A stretch of 64,000 nucleotides of DNA, from positions 1 to 64,000 of the forward strand of contig NZ_CALMZC010000054.1 in the NCBI RefSeq assembly GCF_937873765.1. Reading direction: 5' to 3'. Source of the stretch: an uncultured Thiothrix sp. Lineage in GTDB: Bacteria; Pseudomonadota; Gammaproteobacteria; Thiotrichales; Thiotrichaceae. This document shows, one piece after another, positions 49,951 to 61,183 of this stretch; the stretch's first letter is position 1; the number at the start of each line of letters is the position of its first letter. The translations under genes and the position numbers were made by a program. The notes beneath the pieces were generated by a model. It ran no database searches. It was not told the DNA's origin and was given only the letters and a program-made list of their open reading frames with translations.

Positions 49951-49973
49951 GGATGTGTTACTTAAACACATCC
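49951..49973. terminator. Hairpin at the MFS/flavoprotein junction
   Basis: GGATGTGTT / AACACATCC, a perfect 9-bp stem with a 5-base loop, overlaps the flavoprotein stop codon (49958-49960) and lies 17 bases after the MFS stop. It may terminate both convergent transcripts. Confidence 0.45.
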
Positions 49974-51256
49974 TGCGTAAAATTGTTATACCAACTATAA
50001 GCATAACTCGCATCGAACAAACGATCTTGTGCAGTCCCAGTGGCAGAGGAGACGCCGCCACTCCCCGGAATGCTTTCAATCACTTTGCCATTATCCGACA
50101 GCCGATAAACACCCACGACTGAAATCGCGTAATTCTTACCAACCACACTATAGCAACCATTCGAGAAGGCTGGACTTGCCAACTCCAGACCATTCAACAA
50201 TGCATGAATAGCAGCAGCACAAACTTTAGCTTCCGTATTAGCGGCAAAACCTGATTTAGGCAAGGAGTCTGCCATACAGGCATCACCAATCACATGCATA
50301 TAAGGATGACGCGTGGATTCAAAACTTTGCTTATTGACCGGACACCAGCCCGTGCTATCCACCAAATCAGCATCAAAGGCTAACTTACCGGCTTTTTGCG
50401 GCGGAATCACATTGAGTACTGCCCCTTGAACCCGATCACCAAATTCCGTAATCACCGTTTTTGAACTAACATCGACCTCCACCACTCCGGCAGCCTGATC
50501 ACTGGATCGCCACTCAATCAGCGAGTCAGTGGTTTTATAGCCATAGAGTTCTTTCCATGCCTGCTCGAATAAAGCTTGCTTAGTAAAGCTTGGCTTAGGA
50601 TCAAGAATAATCAGTTTAGAATTCGGTTTGTGCTGTTTTAAATAATAGGCAATTTGACTAGCACGCTCATAAGGGGCGGGCGGACAACGATAAGGATTCG
50701 GGGGAGCAGCAATCACCACAAGACCCCCATTTGGCATCGCATGGAGTTGATCACGTAATAACAGGGTTTGCGCACCCGCCTTCCAAGCATGGGGCACAGT
50801 CTCGATAGCTGCTTCGCTATAACCTGCAATCGCCTCATACTTAAAATCAATCCCCGGCGACACCACACAACGATCATAGGGATAGCTCACACCCCCTTTG
50901 GTTAAAATCAGTTTGGCGTCATAATCAATGCCTGTGACTTCATCAATCACCACCTTGACCCCATGTGCCTTCAGTCCATCGTAATTAAACTGCAAGGACT
51001 CCAAGCTACGCTCGCCACTCAAGACCTCATTACTCATGTAACAAGTTGTATAAATGGCATTCTTTTCAATCAAGGTGACATCAAGGGTATTATCCAAGCG
51101 GCGTAAGTATTTCGCTACCGTTGCACCCCCTGTCCCACCACCAACGACCACCACCCGTTGGCCTGCAGCGCCGACAATCGCAGGGAACCCTAGGCTACTC
51201 ACTGCTGCTCCAGCAACCAATGTTTTTAGAAATGTTCTACGACGAGTATCCAGCAT
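49958..51256 (-). CDS. FccB-type flavocytochrome c sulfide dehydrogenase flavoprotein
   Basis: Protein of 432 residues. A Tat signal (TRRRTFLKTLV) sends it to the periplasm folded. The FAD motif VVVVGGGTGGATVAKYL is at residues 35-51. The cysteines of Allochromatium FccB are all in place: C72 (TTCYMSNE) for covalent FAD, and C191 (RCPPAPYERAS) and C368 (NGCYSVV) for the redox disulfide. The C-terminal FCSD domain ends in SYAYSWYNNFTQ. FccB oxidises sulfide and passes electrons to the cytochrome FccA. No fccA lies here; instead the gene ends an operon with a DUF1552 protein and a CBM2-cytochrome protein, 12 bases behind the former. Confidence 0.88.
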   Translation of the reverse strand: MLDTRRRTFLKTLVAGAAVSSLGFPAIVGAAGQRVVVVGGGTGGATVAKYLRRLDNTLDVTLIEKNAIYTTCYMSNEVLSGERSLESLQFNYDGLKAHGVKVVIDEVTGIDYDAKLILTKGGVSYPYDRCVVSPGIDFKYEAIAGYSEAAIETVPHAWKAGAQTLLLRDQLHAMPNGGLVVIAAPPNPYRCPPAPYERASQIAYYLKQHKPNSKLIILDPKPSFTKQALFEQAWKELYGYKTTDSLIEWRSSDQAAGVVEVDVSSKTVITEFGDRVQGAVLNVIPPQKAGKLAFDADLVDSTGWCPVNKQSFESTRHPYMHVIGDACMADSLPKSGFAANTEAKVCAAAIHALLNGLELASPAFSNGCYSVVGKNYAISVVGVYRLSDNGKVIESIPGSGGVSSATGTAQDRLFDASYAYSWYNNFTQDVFK

Positions 51257-51268
51257 ACTTTGCCTCTC

Positions 51269-52540
51269 CTAAGCGATCAAACCGGGCAAAGGCCCTGGAT
51301 TAGTATCTTGAGTACCAAACTGATTCAGATTCAACCCCATAAATTGAGCCATCGACACCAAGATTTTATTATGTGGTGTCCCATTGAACCTTAAGCTACG
51401 TCCCCCGCTAATCCCCGCACTATTCCCACCTGCGAGAATAAAGGGCATATCGGTATGGTTATGCCAACCACCATTCGCTAGATCACTGCCTACAAAAATC
51501 AAGGTATTATCTAAAAGTGTCCCACTGCCTTCTGGCACACTGGCAAGCTGTTCAATGAGTTTTGCTAATTGCTCGGTGTACCAAGCTTTTACTTTAATAA
51601 AGTCCTCGCCACCGCCATGCGAAGCCTGATGACAAGTCTGACCACTACCTGACTCGGCAATCACCGCCTCATTCACTGCATGCCCCCAAGTTAAGGTCAC
51701 TACCCGCGTTAAATCACAGGCTAAAGCATGTACGGCAATATCCATTTGCAAGCTACTAATCAAGCCCATTTTGCTCGCATCCCGATACTCGGGATTACTC
51801 CAGAAACCCGTGCGTGTGACTTTAAAGCCTGTAGGGTTGAAATTCCACGCCGCACAAACACCCGCATTAGCATTCAGCTTTTGCTCTAACTCCCGCAAAG
51901 ACTCAAGGTGCGTATCTAACTTGGCCTGTTCGACTGAGCCTAAATTATTACGTAAAGCATTCAGTTCATTCAAGGAAGCACTCATGACACTTAAACGCCG
52001 CTGCACTAAGAAATTATCAGCCGCATTCGCCCCAAATAAAGACTCAAATGCGGCTAAAGGATTAGGCTCAGGGGCAACTCGCAAACCATTTGCATCAAAT
52101 GTCACACCCGCACTATCCCAAACGGGAACAATATTCAAGTTCAGATGGGGTCTCACCGTTTGGGTCTTAAAGGATTGTGCAAGGTAATAATCTAAACTGA
52201 CGGCTTTATCACTCGCGCGCCCATCTGCACCGGTGAGTAATTTTAAGACTCCACCTTCATGGGTAGAGCCGGAACCTTTCATGTCGATCCCACCTAAAAA
52301 CACGCAGTGCTGACGCACCCGCTCTAAAGGAGCCGTCATCCGTGGTAGAACGAAATTAGTACCAGTCGTTGATGGATGCCAATGCTCAGGACGCATTCCA
52401 TCTGGGAAATACACAAAAATCACTCGTCGAGGTGGGTCAGCCGCAAAGGCCATATTGCCATAGGGCAACATAGCTGCACCAAAACCGGCCGCCACCCATT
52501 TCAGAAACTTACGGCGCTCATTCACTTGGCTCATGCTCAT
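51269..52540 (-). CDS. Tat-exported DUF1552 protein
   Basis: Protein of 423 residues with a Tat signal (NERRKFLKWVAAGFGAAMLP). DUF1552 proteins share a fold with DUF1501 and the alkaline phosphatase/sulfatase superfamily, although function is not known. Visible: VIFVYFPDGMRPEHW near residue 40, FLGGIDMKGSGSTHEGG near 84, VTLTWGHAVNEAV near 280, SHGGGEDFIK near 303 and FVGSDLANGGWHNHTDMPF near 345. DUF1552 genes are almost always next to DUF1592 genes, as here: it starts five bases after the upstream gene. Histidines and aspartates in these motifs may bind metal. Confidence 0.85.
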   Translation of the reverse strand: MSMSQVNERRKFLKWVAAGFGAAMLPYGNMAFAADPPRRVIFVYFPDGMRPEHWHPSTTGTNFVLPRMTAPLERVRQHCVFLGGIDMKGSGSTHEGGVLKLLTGADGRASDKAVSLDYYLAQSFKTQTVRPHLNLNIVPVWDSAGVTFDANGLRVAPEPNPLAAFESLFGANAADNFLVQRRLSVMSASLNELNALRNNLGSVEQAKLDTHLESLRELEQKLNANAGVCAAWNFNPTGFKVTRTGFWSNPEYRDASKMGLISSLQMDIAVHALACDLTRVVTLTWGHAVNEAVIAESGSGQTCHQASHGGGEDFIKVKAWYTEQLAKLIEQLASVPEGSGTLLDNTLIFVGSDLANGGWHNHTDMPFILAGGNSAGISGGRSLRFNGTPHNKILVSMAQFMGLNLNQFGTQDTNPGPLPGLIA

Positions 52541-52545
52541 ATCCC

Positions 52546-55500
52546 CTATTGCGCCCGACGCAAGGTAAAGTTAGGCGCATTCACAATGCTCAGCAACATC
52601 GTTTGTAGGTTGTAATTATTATCTTTATAAGTTTGGAGGTAATCCTCCAAAGCACAGCTATCCGCCGAAAACTCTCTACGCCCCGTGGTATAACGATAAT
52701 ACTGGCGCGCTAAACATTGAGCAGCCGTGGGACTATCTGCGAGCAATTGGCTGAGATAACCAAGATCGGTTACGCTCAGCTCTTCAGTTGGCGAATAAGT
52801 TTCCATACCCCGCAAGATGCCGCTCGCATCAATCAGACTACCGTTTTCCAATTGCCGGAATTGACCCGCACCATCATATTTTTCAAAATTGAATCCAGGA
52901 CCATCCAAGTATTGATGACAACTGTAACAACTCGTCCCCGAATTACTATGGAAAGCAAAACGCTCACGGGTGGTCATATTCGGATCAGGATCCGGTGCCT
53001 CAACGATCCCCATATTGGCTGGCTCTGGTAAATCATGGCAAAGCACTCGCTCAAAGAAAAAGCGCCCACGTTTGAAGGGATGGGATTCATTACTATTCGC
53101 GTAGCGGGCTAAAACTGCACCTAAGGTCAAAATACCATGCCGTGTGCCATCCGCCACCGGCGTTTTCTCAAAGCTATTACTGCTTGGCCCGGTCAATTGA
53201 TAGAAATTTGCTAAAGTCTGATTCGCCAACACATAATCCGCCTCATATAACTCACGGAAACTTTGCGTCGAATCAAAAGTTACATAGTTAAAGAAATTAA
53301 TCAATTCTTGCGACATAGCTAGGCGTACTGCATCAGTGTAGGCAGGATAGACACTACTATCTTTAGCGGGCAAGAAATACGGATTGGTTTTGAGTAGCCA
53401 TTGCCCAACAAAATTACCCACTTGCTGACGACTTCGACTTGCTGCCAATAAACGTGAAGCTTGGGTGATACGTTGTTGCGCAGTATCCAGCGCATTCTGA
53501 TCAGCCGCTGTCATTAATTCCGCATCAGGCATACTGCCCCAGAACAAGTAAGAAAGACTGCTAGCAACCTCATAGGATGTGAGCTTATAGGTACCGTCGG
53601 TTTGCAACTCTCCCAGCTCAGAACGGTAGAGGAAATGAGGTGACATCAGCATCCCCATGACGGTTTTTTCTACCGCATCTTTGAAAGCTATACCACTAAA
53701 ATTCAGCGCAAAACTATCCACTTCAGTCGTTGTTAAAGGTCGCCGGAAAGCACGCTTGCCAAAACTTTGAATAAATTGCCGTCCACAAGCAGCATCTTGT
53801 TGACCACAGGGCACTAAATGATTCCAACTTTGCAAGACCGCCTGCGATGCTAATTGCTCAGCTTGGGTCAGGAAAGCCTCCATTCTCAAACTGGTAATCT
53901 GATTCTGCGCCACATTATTATCAAAGCCATCGACCCGATTTTCTTCAGGTAATTTATGCAAGAGATCCAGTTGCAAACCCAGTAAATCATTGACCGTGTT
54001 TTGATATTCTTGGCGAGTTAGCAATCTCAAACTACGGGCACTGGCAGGGGGTGAGCCTAGGCAAGCTTGAGTATCATCATCTCCCCCACCATTAGCATTC
54101 GGAACTAAAACTTCGGTGATATAACTAGCAATAGCCGAAGCACATCCCCCTGTACAGGCTCCGGGATTACCAGGCGGCATGGTATCGTGAATAACTTTGG
54201 TTAAATTCGCTAAATCAGCAGAGGTGTATTTAGTTAAAGCCACTTTGGTAAAACCACCCTTGCCATCCGCACCATGACAACTCGCACAACCTTGACGTTG
54301 ATATTGGCTTTGACCATATTGTAAGGCTGTTTGTAAACTCACCGTTGCTATCGTGCTTGCGGTGCTGCCTTTGGTATTAAACGCTGATACCCGATAGTCA
54401 TATCCCAAGCCCATTGCAACCGTCGTATCGGTATAGGCTTGGGTATTACTGGCTAAATCGATCAGACTAACCCAATCATTATCAGTCGCTCCCATAGCAC
54501 GTCGTTCAACCCGGAAACCTAGCTCGGTAGCGCTAGTATCTTTCCAAGCTAAATTGACTTTACTATTATCCACTGCAGTGGCAATAAACACAGTAGGTGC
54601 AGTCGGCACGGTATCCGTTGAGTTCCCCCCATCATCCCCGCCCCCGTTATCCCCACCATTGTTTCCTCCGGCTTTCGCAGTAGCATCCGCCGCATAATAT
54701 TGAGCCAGTGCGACTAACACATCCTCACCAAACAATAACTTTAAGTTAGTCATTTGATGTGCCATTTCGGTCGGAATATTGCTGCTACGTCCTAGGTAGT
54801 AATCCTCAAGCGTAGCATGCAAATAACCAGCCCACTGCCCATCAAGACGGGTACCTGTCAAGCTCATATCATTGCCCGTGCCCACATGGCAAAAAACACA
54901 GTTACTTTCATGGACTGCCTTACCACGATTAACAAGAGTTTGATCAGTAATTTGTGGGGCTGCTTTAAACGGCAGAGCGGCCAAATAATCAGCCATACGC
55001 TCAATTTGAGTATCGGTATAGCCCTTGGCAATCCGATTCATGACACTCGAAGCCCGTTCACCCGTACGATAAGCTTTCATCGTACGAACTAGGTAGCTTT
55101 TACTTAGACCGGCAATTGAGGGAGTTCCCGGCCCCGAACTATAGCCGTCAGTACCGTGGCAGGCAGCACAATTATTCACCAACATCGCTGCCCGAATATC
55201 GGTTCGATCTTGGCGCTTAGCTAATACAATATCGGTATAAGTTGACGAGCCTGAAACATTCACTGCCTTTAAACGATATTCATACGTGATGCCAACCGCT
55301 AAGGTTTTATCTTGATAGCTGAGCGTATTCGCCGCTAAAGTTACTAAGGCCACCCAGTTTCCGCCAGTTTGGAGACGCTCTAGGACGAAAGAGTCTTCAT
55401 TATCACTGGTATCTTGCCAATTCAGATCAGCATAATTATTTTCGATCAGGCTCACTTTTAATTGTGTAGGCGCTTTGGGTGGTAACTGCAGTGTATCAGC

Positions 55501-56616
55501 CTGACCACTGCAGCGCGTGCCATTCACTGCTAGATCAATCGGGGCAATATTTAAGCCCGTGTGCGAAGCATTAAAGCCAAAGGAAAGACTCTTATTTTGG
55601 CGGACAATCTTATTACTTTCTATATGCCCAACCGTGACCTTATCCGCTGCTTGATTAAATTGTCCATTCCAGCCCTCAGTTAACTTTTGCCCCGTTGGCA
55701 TGGTCCAAGTGGCTTGCCAGCCACTCCAAGGAGCACCGGTATTTTTAATATCGACTGTTCCTGTAAAACCAGTCTCCCATTGGGTTTGGATTTGATATTT
55801 CACTTCACAGGAGGGAGGGGGAGGTGCGGGTGGATCTACCTGTCCGGTACATTTAACTCCATTGACACTGATATTACCGGGAATACGATTAAGCCCACTG
55901 TGATTAGCATTAAAGCCAAATTGCAGCGTACCCCCTGCAGCGATTAGTTGGTTCCAACCGGCATGCGTTACATCAATATGGCTGCTAGTCTGTTTATAAA
56001 CCCCATTCCACATACCCGTGAGCTGCTGAGCATCAGGCATATCCCAAGCGACCGTCCAATTACTTAGAGCATCACCCGTATTCTTAATAGCTACATCACC
56101 GGTATAGCCCGTATCCCATTCAGTGACAATAGCATATTTGACATCGCACGCCACGACAGCAGGTTTAGGAGGTAGTGGATTTCCTTCACAGAGCACACCA
56201 TTAACAGCGATATTGCTAGGCTTTTGATTGGTTCCCGTATGTGAGCCATTAAAGCCAAATTGCACTGTTGTGCTATTGTTAACCTTGCCATTCCAACTTG
56301 CATTTTTAACTGTGACGGCCGCACCGGTTTGGGTGTAGCTGCCATTCCATAAGCCGGTAATTTTCTGCCCGTTGGGCATATCCCAAGCAACCGTCCAACT
56401 AGACCACGCATCACCGGTATTGGTGAGGGTTACATTGGCAGAAAAACCATTGCCCCATTGATTAGGGATGTTGTAGTCGACTTTACAAGTTGTTCCTGCC
56501 CACGCAAGCGAACTGAAAAACCACAAGACTAAACCAAGTAGCCAATAACTCATCAAGCTAGACCTGCGTCCAAGCTTAAAGCCCATGCGCTCCGGCATGA
56601 GTTGTTGATTTTTCAT
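52546..56616 (-). CDS. CBM2-multihaem-DUF1592 secreted giant protein
   Basis: Protein of 1356 residues, with GAGGAGA before the ATG. Domains in order: signal peptide (about 1-40); three cellulose-binding CBM2 domains (44-143, 157-256, 270-369), each closed by a cysteine pair and with conserved tryptophans such as SWTVAWDMP; fibronectin III (about 382-465); c-type haem CAACH (483-487) and CVFCH (573-577); a Gly/Asn/Asp linker (about 650-670); a second fibronectin III (about 672-757); haem CASCH (777-781); then DUF1587, DUF1595, DUF1592, DUF1588 and DUF1585 (about 863-1350), with a fourth CXXCH, CYSCH (1230-1234). It is first in an operon with DUF1552 and FccB-like genes. Cellulose-binding cytochromes of Cellvibrio (Cbp2D/E) are the nearest known idea. 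Function is unknown; surface redox work on a polysaccharide is inferred. Confidence 0.87.
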   Translation of the reverse strand: MKNQQLMPERMGFKLGRRSSLMSYWLLGLVLWFFSSLAWAGTTCKVDYNIPNQWGNGFSANVTLTNTGDAWSSWTVAWDMPNGQKITGLWNGSYTQTGAAVTVKNASWNGKVNNSTTVQFGFNGSHTGTNQKPSNIAVNGVLCEGNPLPPKPAVVACDVKYAIVTEWDTGYTGDVAIKNTGDALSNWTVAWDMPDAQQLTGMWNGVYKQTSSHIDVTHAGWNQLIAAGGTLQFGFNANHSGLNRIPGNISVNGVKCTGQVDPPAPPPPSCEVKYQIQTQWETGFTGTVDIKNTGAPWSGWQATWTMPTGQKLTEGWNGQFNQAADKVTVGHIESNKIVRQNKSLSFGFNASHTGLNIAPIDLAVNGTRCSGQADTLQLPPKAPTQLKVSLIENNYADLNWQDTSDNEDSFVLERLQTGGNWVALVTLAANTLSYQDKTLAVGITYEYRLKAVNVSGSSTYTDIVLAKRQDRTDIRAAMLVNNCAACHGTDGYSSGPGTPSIAGLSKSYLVRTMKAYRTGERASSVMNRIAKGYTDTQIERMADYLAALPFKAAPQITDQTLVNRGKAVHESNCVFCHVGTGNDMSLTGTRLDGQWAGYLHATLEDYYLGRSSNIPTEMAHQMTNLKLLFGEDVLVALAQYYAADATAKAGGNNGGDNGGGDDGGNSTDTVPTAPTVFIATAVDNSKVNLAWKDTSATELGFRVERRAMGATDNDWVSLIDLASNTQAYTDTTVAMGLGYDYRVSAFNTKGSTASTIATVSLQTALQYGQSQYQRQGCASCHGADGKGGFTKVALTKYTSADLANLTKVIHDTMPPGNPGACTGGCASAIASYITEVLVPNANGGGDDDTQACLGSPPASARSLRLLTRQEYQNTVNDLLGLQLDLLHKLPEENRVDGFDNNVAQNQITSLRMEAFLTQAEQLASQAVLQSWNHLVPCGQQDAACGRQFIQSFGKRAFRRPLTTTEVDSFALNFSGIAFKDAVEKTVMGMLMSPHFLYRSELGELQTDGTYKLTSYEVASSLSYLFWGSMPDAELMTAADQNALDTAQQRITQASRLLAASRSRQQVGNFVGQWLLKTNPYFLPAKDSSVYPAYTDAVRLAMSQELINFFNYVTFDSTQSFRELYEADYVLANQTLANFYQLTGPSSNSFEKTPVADGTRHGILTLGAVLARYANSNESHPFKRGRFFFERVLCHDLPEPANMGIVEAPDPDPNMTTRERFAFHSNSGTSCYSCHQYLDGPGFNFEKYDGAGQFRQLENGSLIDASGILRGMETYSPTEELSVTDLGYLSQLLADSPTAAQCLARQYYRYTTGRREFSADSCALEDYLQTYKDNNYNLQTMLLSIVNAPNFTLRRAQ

Positions 56617-60823: not shown

Positions 60824-61183
60824 GTGGACAGAAGGAAAAGGGAGTATCTTTGCGATGAACTGAAAAGGTACTGCAGGATAAGTAAGACAAAATCCCCCAG
60901 TCCGAAAAGCACGACGTATACGCATCACAGCCACGAGTACAAACAAGAAGCGTTGAAACTCGCCAAGCAGATTGGCGTTGGCAAAGCGGCGTTACAGTTG
61001 GGTGTGCACGAATCCCAGCTTTATCAATGGCGCAAGGCGTTTGAGCACGCACAAACGGTGAGTGAGCGTGAAACGAGTCTCGCCGTGGAAAATGCGCGTT
61101 TAAAGCGTGAGTTAGCGGAAGTGCAGGAGGAACTCGCCATTGCAAAAAAGGCGGCCACCTACTTCGCGAAACAACTGAAGTGA
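60824..61183 (+). CDS. IS3-family OrfA (DNA-binding part of transposase)
   Basis: Open frame of 119 codons. The true start is unclear: the first possible GTG (60824) lies within the terminal repeat and no ATG occurs in frame before the conserved part. From about residue 37 the sequence is typical OrfA: YKQEALKLAKQIGVGKAALQLGVHESQLYQWRKAF is a helix-turn-helix, followed by a leucine-zipper-like ENARLKRELAEVQEELAIAKK. It overlaps orfB by four bases (61180-61183), where a -1 frameshift usually makes the OrfAB fusion. Confidence 0.82.
   Translation: MDRRKREYLCDELKRYCRISKTKSPSPKSTTYTHHSHEYKQEALKLAKQIGVGKAALQLGVHESQLYQWRKAFEHAQTVSERETSLAVENARLKRELAEVQEELAIAKKAATYFAKQLK

Follow-up and report, generated by a model that had tools for sequence, protein, structure and literature searches.

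Cbp2D of Cellvibrio japonicus is composed of CBM2, X158, FN3, X183, and X132, and Cellvibrio requires it to grow normally on insoluble cellulose. The X183 domain of Cbp2D can slowly reduce an LPMO, whereas the X183s of Teredinibacter could not, and the partner of the latter was left "yet-to-be-identified" (PMC10916295). An extracellular redox role on polysaccharide is suspected for Cbp2D and for TERTU_3803/TERTU_2913 (PMC8981238, PMC12542752, PMC10916295). In Verrucomicrobia, PSCyt3-PSD genes adjoin a conserved gene; their function is not known, and some have CBM-like domains (PMC5615132). The FccAB flavocytochrome c sulfide dehydrogenase (FCSD; structures 1fcd and 3vrd) is a further relative of the locus described here, which belongs to an uncultured Thiothrix sp. 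and lies within a window of 64,000 nucleotides, the whole stretch of DNA that was analysed (contig NZ_CALMZC010000054.1).

The locus comprises three genes separated by 5 and 12 bases, as an earlier sequence-only reading had described; all are co-directional on the minus strand. The giant first protein has a Sec-type leader, and the DUF1552 protein and FccB have RR-x-FLK Tat leaders, which agrees with the Sec, Tat, and Tat signals proposed in that reading. The genes and domains, with their coordinates in the window, are:

52546-56616, minus strand: giant exported tetrahaem protein, 1356 aa, in the order signal peptide, three CBM2, FN3, FccA, FN3, X183, X132/PSD block
56188-56487, minus strand: CBM2 copy 1 of the giant, three of three binding-face Trp kept relative to the CBM2a of CfXyn10A
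55849-56148, minus strand: CBM2 copy 2, three of three Trp kept
55510-55809, minus strand: CBM2 copy 3, two of three Trp kept
55231-55473, minus strand: FN3 domain 1, residues 382-462 (Pfam fn3, E 4.9e-6)
54682-55206, minus strand: fused FccA, full-length dihaem subunit, residues about 471-645, CXXCH at 483 and 573, both axial Met kept
54334-54606, minus strand: FN3-like domain 2, about residues 671-761, a weak match to FN3con chains and similar to FN3 domain 1
54112-54321, minus strand: X183-type monohaem cytochrome c domain, residues 766-835, CXXCH at 777 (8q1v, E 6.9e-11; Cbp2D X183 7b21, E 2.4e-6)
52567-54027, minus strand: X132/PSD block, DUF1587-DUF1595-DUF1592-DUF1588 (PSCyt3, CXXCH at 1230)-DUF1585, from Pfam and an AlphaFold model
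51269-52540, minus strand: DUF1552 (HXXSHH) protein, 423 aa (Pfam DUF1552, E 2.4e-63), Tat leader
49958-51256, minus strand: FccB, flavin subunit of flavocytochrome c sulfide dehydrogenase, 432 aa (Pfam), Tat leader

Pfam bears out the three CBM2 domains (E 7.8e-78), the DUF1587/1595/1592/1588/1585 series, and the DUF1552 identity of the second gene, and the four CXXCH motifs of the giant are present, all as previously read. That domain list was correct for the domains it named, but it overlooked that the third haem domain is of the X183 type and that the giant has two FN3-like stretches. The claim that the flavoprotein comes without a cytochrome subunit does not hold, as the first two CXXCH motifs of the giant belong to a complete FccA domain. 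Residues 476-643 match FccA of solved structures over its full length (3vrd_A, E 1.3e-31, and 4.2e-33 on repeat; also 1fcd_C). Across 35 FccA sequences, fused and free, the two CXXCH motifs and the two Met ligand positions never vary, and these Met are presumably the axial haem ligands, as in the family. Judged by homology, the cytochrome subunit of FccB is thus located two genes upstream, inside the giant, and not free.

The third gene is a sulfide-dehydrogenase-type flavoprotein, as had been read, with the FCSD central and flavin-binding domains (PF21706, E 6.1e-48; PF09242, E 1.7e-20). It aligns end to end with 3vrd_B (E 3.4e-146) and 1fcd_A (E 2.6e-143). Cys72, Cys191, and Cys368 are invariant in all 35 sequences. 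From the alignment with the Allochromatium enzyme and from what is known of 1fcd, Cys72 is taken to be the covalent FAD site, and Cys191 and Cys368 the redox disulfide pair. The trio therefore shares with FccAB an end-to-end FccB, the three functional Cys, a full-length FccA, and both haem sites. In contrast to FccAB, its FccA is one domain of a tetrahaem giant with CBM2, from which FccB is separated by a DUF1552 gene. The operon is, by its predicted domains, a complete flavocytochrome c, FccB plus fused FccA, on a CBM2-X183-X132 and DUF1552 system.

The third haem domain of the giant is closest to the X183 of Teredinibacter and of Cbp2D, and the fourth CXXCH falls within DUF1588. The AlphaFold model of the X132 block is confident, with a pLDDT of 88.7 and a pTM of 0.90; among solved folds, Foldseek gave no match, and the best VIA-align hit (Z 6.0, 100 residues, 4.3 A) is not convincing. 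The block also has an invariant His seven residues before the CXXCH. The DUF1552 protein is modelled at a pLDDT of 79.5 with an alkaline-phosphatase/sulfatase superfamily fold (VIA-align Z 17.6, 242 residues, 3.3 A). Its wide alignment has H304, H308, and H360 as invariant residues. D47, the Asp after the first strand and the superfamily's usual metal-binding place, is outside the conserved positions of that alignment, and hydrolase activity is for this reason not assumed.

The giant resembles the Cbp2D and Teredinibacter proteins in having CBM2 (Cbp2D, TERTU_3803), FN3 (Cbp2D), X183, and a probable X132 that starts with DUF1587 (Cbp2D). The giant has DUF1587 and the rest of the block, and PMC8981238 draws X132 with DUF1587; the likeness is taken from that drawing. 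Where the giant has FccA, Cbp2D, TERTU_3803, and TERTU_2913 have X158 (YceI-like, quinone-binding) or X122, and the Pfam scan of the giant gave no YceI (X158) match. DUF1552 and FccB genes follow the giant, unlike in the Cbp2D and Teredinibacter systems. The PSCyt3-PSD loci of Planctomycetes and Verrucomicrobia have the same DUF1587-1595-1592-1588-1585 block and a DUF1552 neighbour, but the 40-odd examined have neither an FccA domain nor a linked FccB. The combination had been called undescribed, and this is right only for the addition of FccA and FccB, since CBM-X183-X132 proteins such as Cbp2D and PSCyt3-PSD genes with conserved neighbours are already published. The literature searched, which covers few subscription journals, contains no account of the FccA fusion.

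A role as LPMO electron donor is rejected for these genomes, as a search for the AA10 family found no AA10 LPMO in any of the 13 genomes checked. LPMO reduction is an unlikely purpose of the giant.

Methanotrophs offer a comparison without a linked flavocytochrome c. Loci of Methylococcus sp., M. capsulatus Texas, and Methylocucumis oryzae have the same CBM2-FN3-X183-X132 order followed by DUF1552, and their X132 blocks are 62-69% identical to that of the giant. They differ from the trio in lacking the FccA domain and in lacking FccB after DUF1552. A fourth methanotroph locus of the same layout is cut by a contig end. In the methanotroph genomes, one FccB-like gene lies at a separate, unlinked place. 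In M. oryzae, the DUF1552 gene is split into two overlapping frames (L090:7889-9161), possibly by a frameshift or a sequencing error.

The full trio is found in 16 genomes, including that of the window, so that the linkage of the flavoprotein gene to the PSD and DUF1552 genes, on which the sequence-only reading depended, holds elsewhere. Seen again in 16 genomes, the arrangement is far beyond chance. A 17th genome, of the window's own genus, has the giant and DUF1552 and then a contig end. Trio-type FccB occurs at 82-88% identity in 11 Thiothrix genomes, and a second genus of the family has it at 63%; named carriers include T. caldifontis and T. fructosivorans. The order in all those Thiothrix-family genomes is FccA-bearing giant, DUF1552, and FccB, and the same trio is present in Ca. 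Marithrix, Thiohalocapsa ML1, and a gammaproteobacterium of another family. In an even sample of 369 Gammaproteobacteria, a match running from FccA through X132 occurs in this genome and one other, a lower bound because at most two candidates were scored per genome; nearly all other matches are free FccA. The trio sits among Thiothrix sequences, yet most genomes of the window's genus lack it. Such patchy presence is a hint of either transfer within the family or loss on repeated occasions. The flanking gene NhaA is absent from most relatives and is thus uninformative as a gauge of transfer.

The examined ORFs with a PSD block comprise 20 with FccA and a downstream FccB, two with FccA but too little contig left for FccB, and 51 with neither, the four methanotroph loci among them; FccB was sought up to 3 kb downstream, some contigs end inside those 3 kb, and several loci represent one genome from two collections. 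Wherever the contig goes on beyond an FccA-bearing PSD-block protein, FccB is the gene after DUF1552. By this pattern, the FccA domain and the operon's FccB gene are gained or lost together. Among these loci, a contig labelled as a Poseidoniaceae archaeon has PSD and DUF1552 genes of the same size and at the same positions as a Verrucomicrobiales contig, and is probably a binning error.

Trees of FccA and FccB from 35 pairs each have a single branch that parts the fused forms from classic FccAB (support 99/97 for FccA and 100/100 for FccB). Grouping within the fused forms is weakly supported in the FccA tree. The distance matrices of FccA and FccB correlate, with r 0.95 for the whole set and 0.92 for the CBM2 type by itself, values reached by 0 and 2 of 2000 permutations, respectively; the two proteins have co-evolved. 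Trees and distances together fit one origin of the fused FccA-FccB pair followed by joint descent.

A second, paralogous trio with fused FccA occurs at seven loci of Thiothrix and others, and consists of a giant, a DUF1501-or-similar protein, and then FccB. This giant contains FccA and a divergent PSD4/PSCyt3 region, is PA14-rich at one locus (L038), and is encoded in open frames as long as about 3,700 aa. On a reading of PMC5615132 together with the present loci, planctomycete-type cytochromes have two kinds of neighbour, the DUF1501 and the DUF1552 proteins. As FccA and FccB pair with both, the same electron-input module is used with two members of the planctomycete-type group.

In this genome, CBM2 is confined to the giant, which likewise holds all recognisable CBM2 in eight of nine Thiothrix genomes checked; there is thus no set of CBM2 cellulases. 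This near confinement and the kept binding Trp speak for a single specific glycan as the target. As Thiothrix is sheathed (PMC8570282), the sheath is a plausible candidate for this predicted target, and no account of Thiothrix sheath chemistry was found in the literature searched. Dedicated cellulose degradation is weakened by the restriction of CBM2 to the giant here, whereas GH5 domains, present in nine of 11 genomes checked, speak otherwise.

Taken together, the operon probably encodes a polysaccharide-anchored flavocytochrome c in which electrons pass from sulfide through FAD, the FccA haems, and X183 to the X132 haem. The giant would be exported via Sec and held on a crystalline β-1,4-glycan by CBM2. 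FccB would fold in the cytoplasm, take up FAD, exit via Tat, and dock outside the cytoplasm on the FccA domain of the giant as it does on free FccA. This docking step is well supported. The giant-FccB complex may then cross the outer membrane; type II secretin genes are present, although a substrate signal is not readable. Sulfide or a related sulfane would reduce the FAD of FccB, and some other sulfur species may be the donor. The electrons may then move to the two FccA haems, to X183, and to the haem of the X132/PSCyt3 block, which would act with DUF1552 on a polymer-bound target. In sulfur bacteria, FccA and FccB may have been added as an electron-input module to a CBM2-X183-X132 and DUF1552 machine that methanotrophs have alone. 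The earlier proposal, an electron chain that links the flavoprotein with the haems of a protein held on polysaccharide, has good support, and better than that reading had, because FccA, the flavoprotein's natural partner, is inside the giant; no subunit is missing.

A less favoured, rather unlikely alternative is that the locus serves anchored sulfide oxidation only. The giant would then be a scaffold that fixes a flavocytochrome c of the ordinary kind at the sheath or extracellular matrix, the first place to meet sulfide; from the haems, electrons would leave for soluble cytochromes and the respiratory chain, and X132 would be structural or a conduit and not polymer-acting. All catalytic features of FCSD are kept, the named carriers are of sulfur-oxidiser lineages, and the absence of a CBM2 cellulase set agrees with such a scaffold. 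However, X132 and DUF1552 are kept without FccA in methanotrophs, Planctomycetes, and Verrucomicrobia, which indicates a job of their own. Further FccB copies, classic FccAB in some cases, are frequent in the same genomes, and make another plain copy less needed.

Reverse flow, in which X132/DUF1552 oxidises the polymer and electrons pass through X183 and FccA to FccB to reduce sulfur or polysulfide, is improbable. Flavin-cytochrome chains can in principle run both ways, and the X132 block is without known chemistry, but the sulfide-oxidising family's Cys pair and covalent FAD site persist in FccB, and the named carriers are bacteria that live by sulfide oxidation. Still more improbable is that the genes are mere neighbours, in which case FccB would pair with a free FccA from another locus, and the FccA domain built into the giant would have a different partner. 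Although classic FccA/FccB pairs do occur in some of these genomes, the tight co-occurrence in several families, the close spacing, and the shared split from classic FccAB in both trees argue against it.

Tentatively, the fused flavocytochrome c may feed X132/DUF1552 in a sulfide-powered extracellular machine that modifies or cuts a structural polysaccharide, for example the organism's own sheath. If true, sulfide would be the fuel here, and the machine the bacterial analogue of a cellobiose dehydrogenase that supplies an oxidative enzyme. For the X183-X132 and PSCyt-PSD proteins, which are widespread, the trio suggests an electron source by naming a partner with well-understood chemistry. Because the genome names FccB as this partner, the electron direction and redox span of the family are testable with sulfide as a simple reagent. 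The locus further raises the possibility that part of the sulfide oxidation in Thiothrix takes place on an extracellular polymer, and published fccAB counts in the Thiothrix group may mix free and fused forms.

An AGGAG that is ribosome-binding-like precedes the FccB start. Promoter and terminator scans gave sites no more numerous than in shuffled sequence. Elsewhere in the window, an ORF at 60824-61183 on the plus strand resembles, by eye, an IS3-type transposase OrfA.
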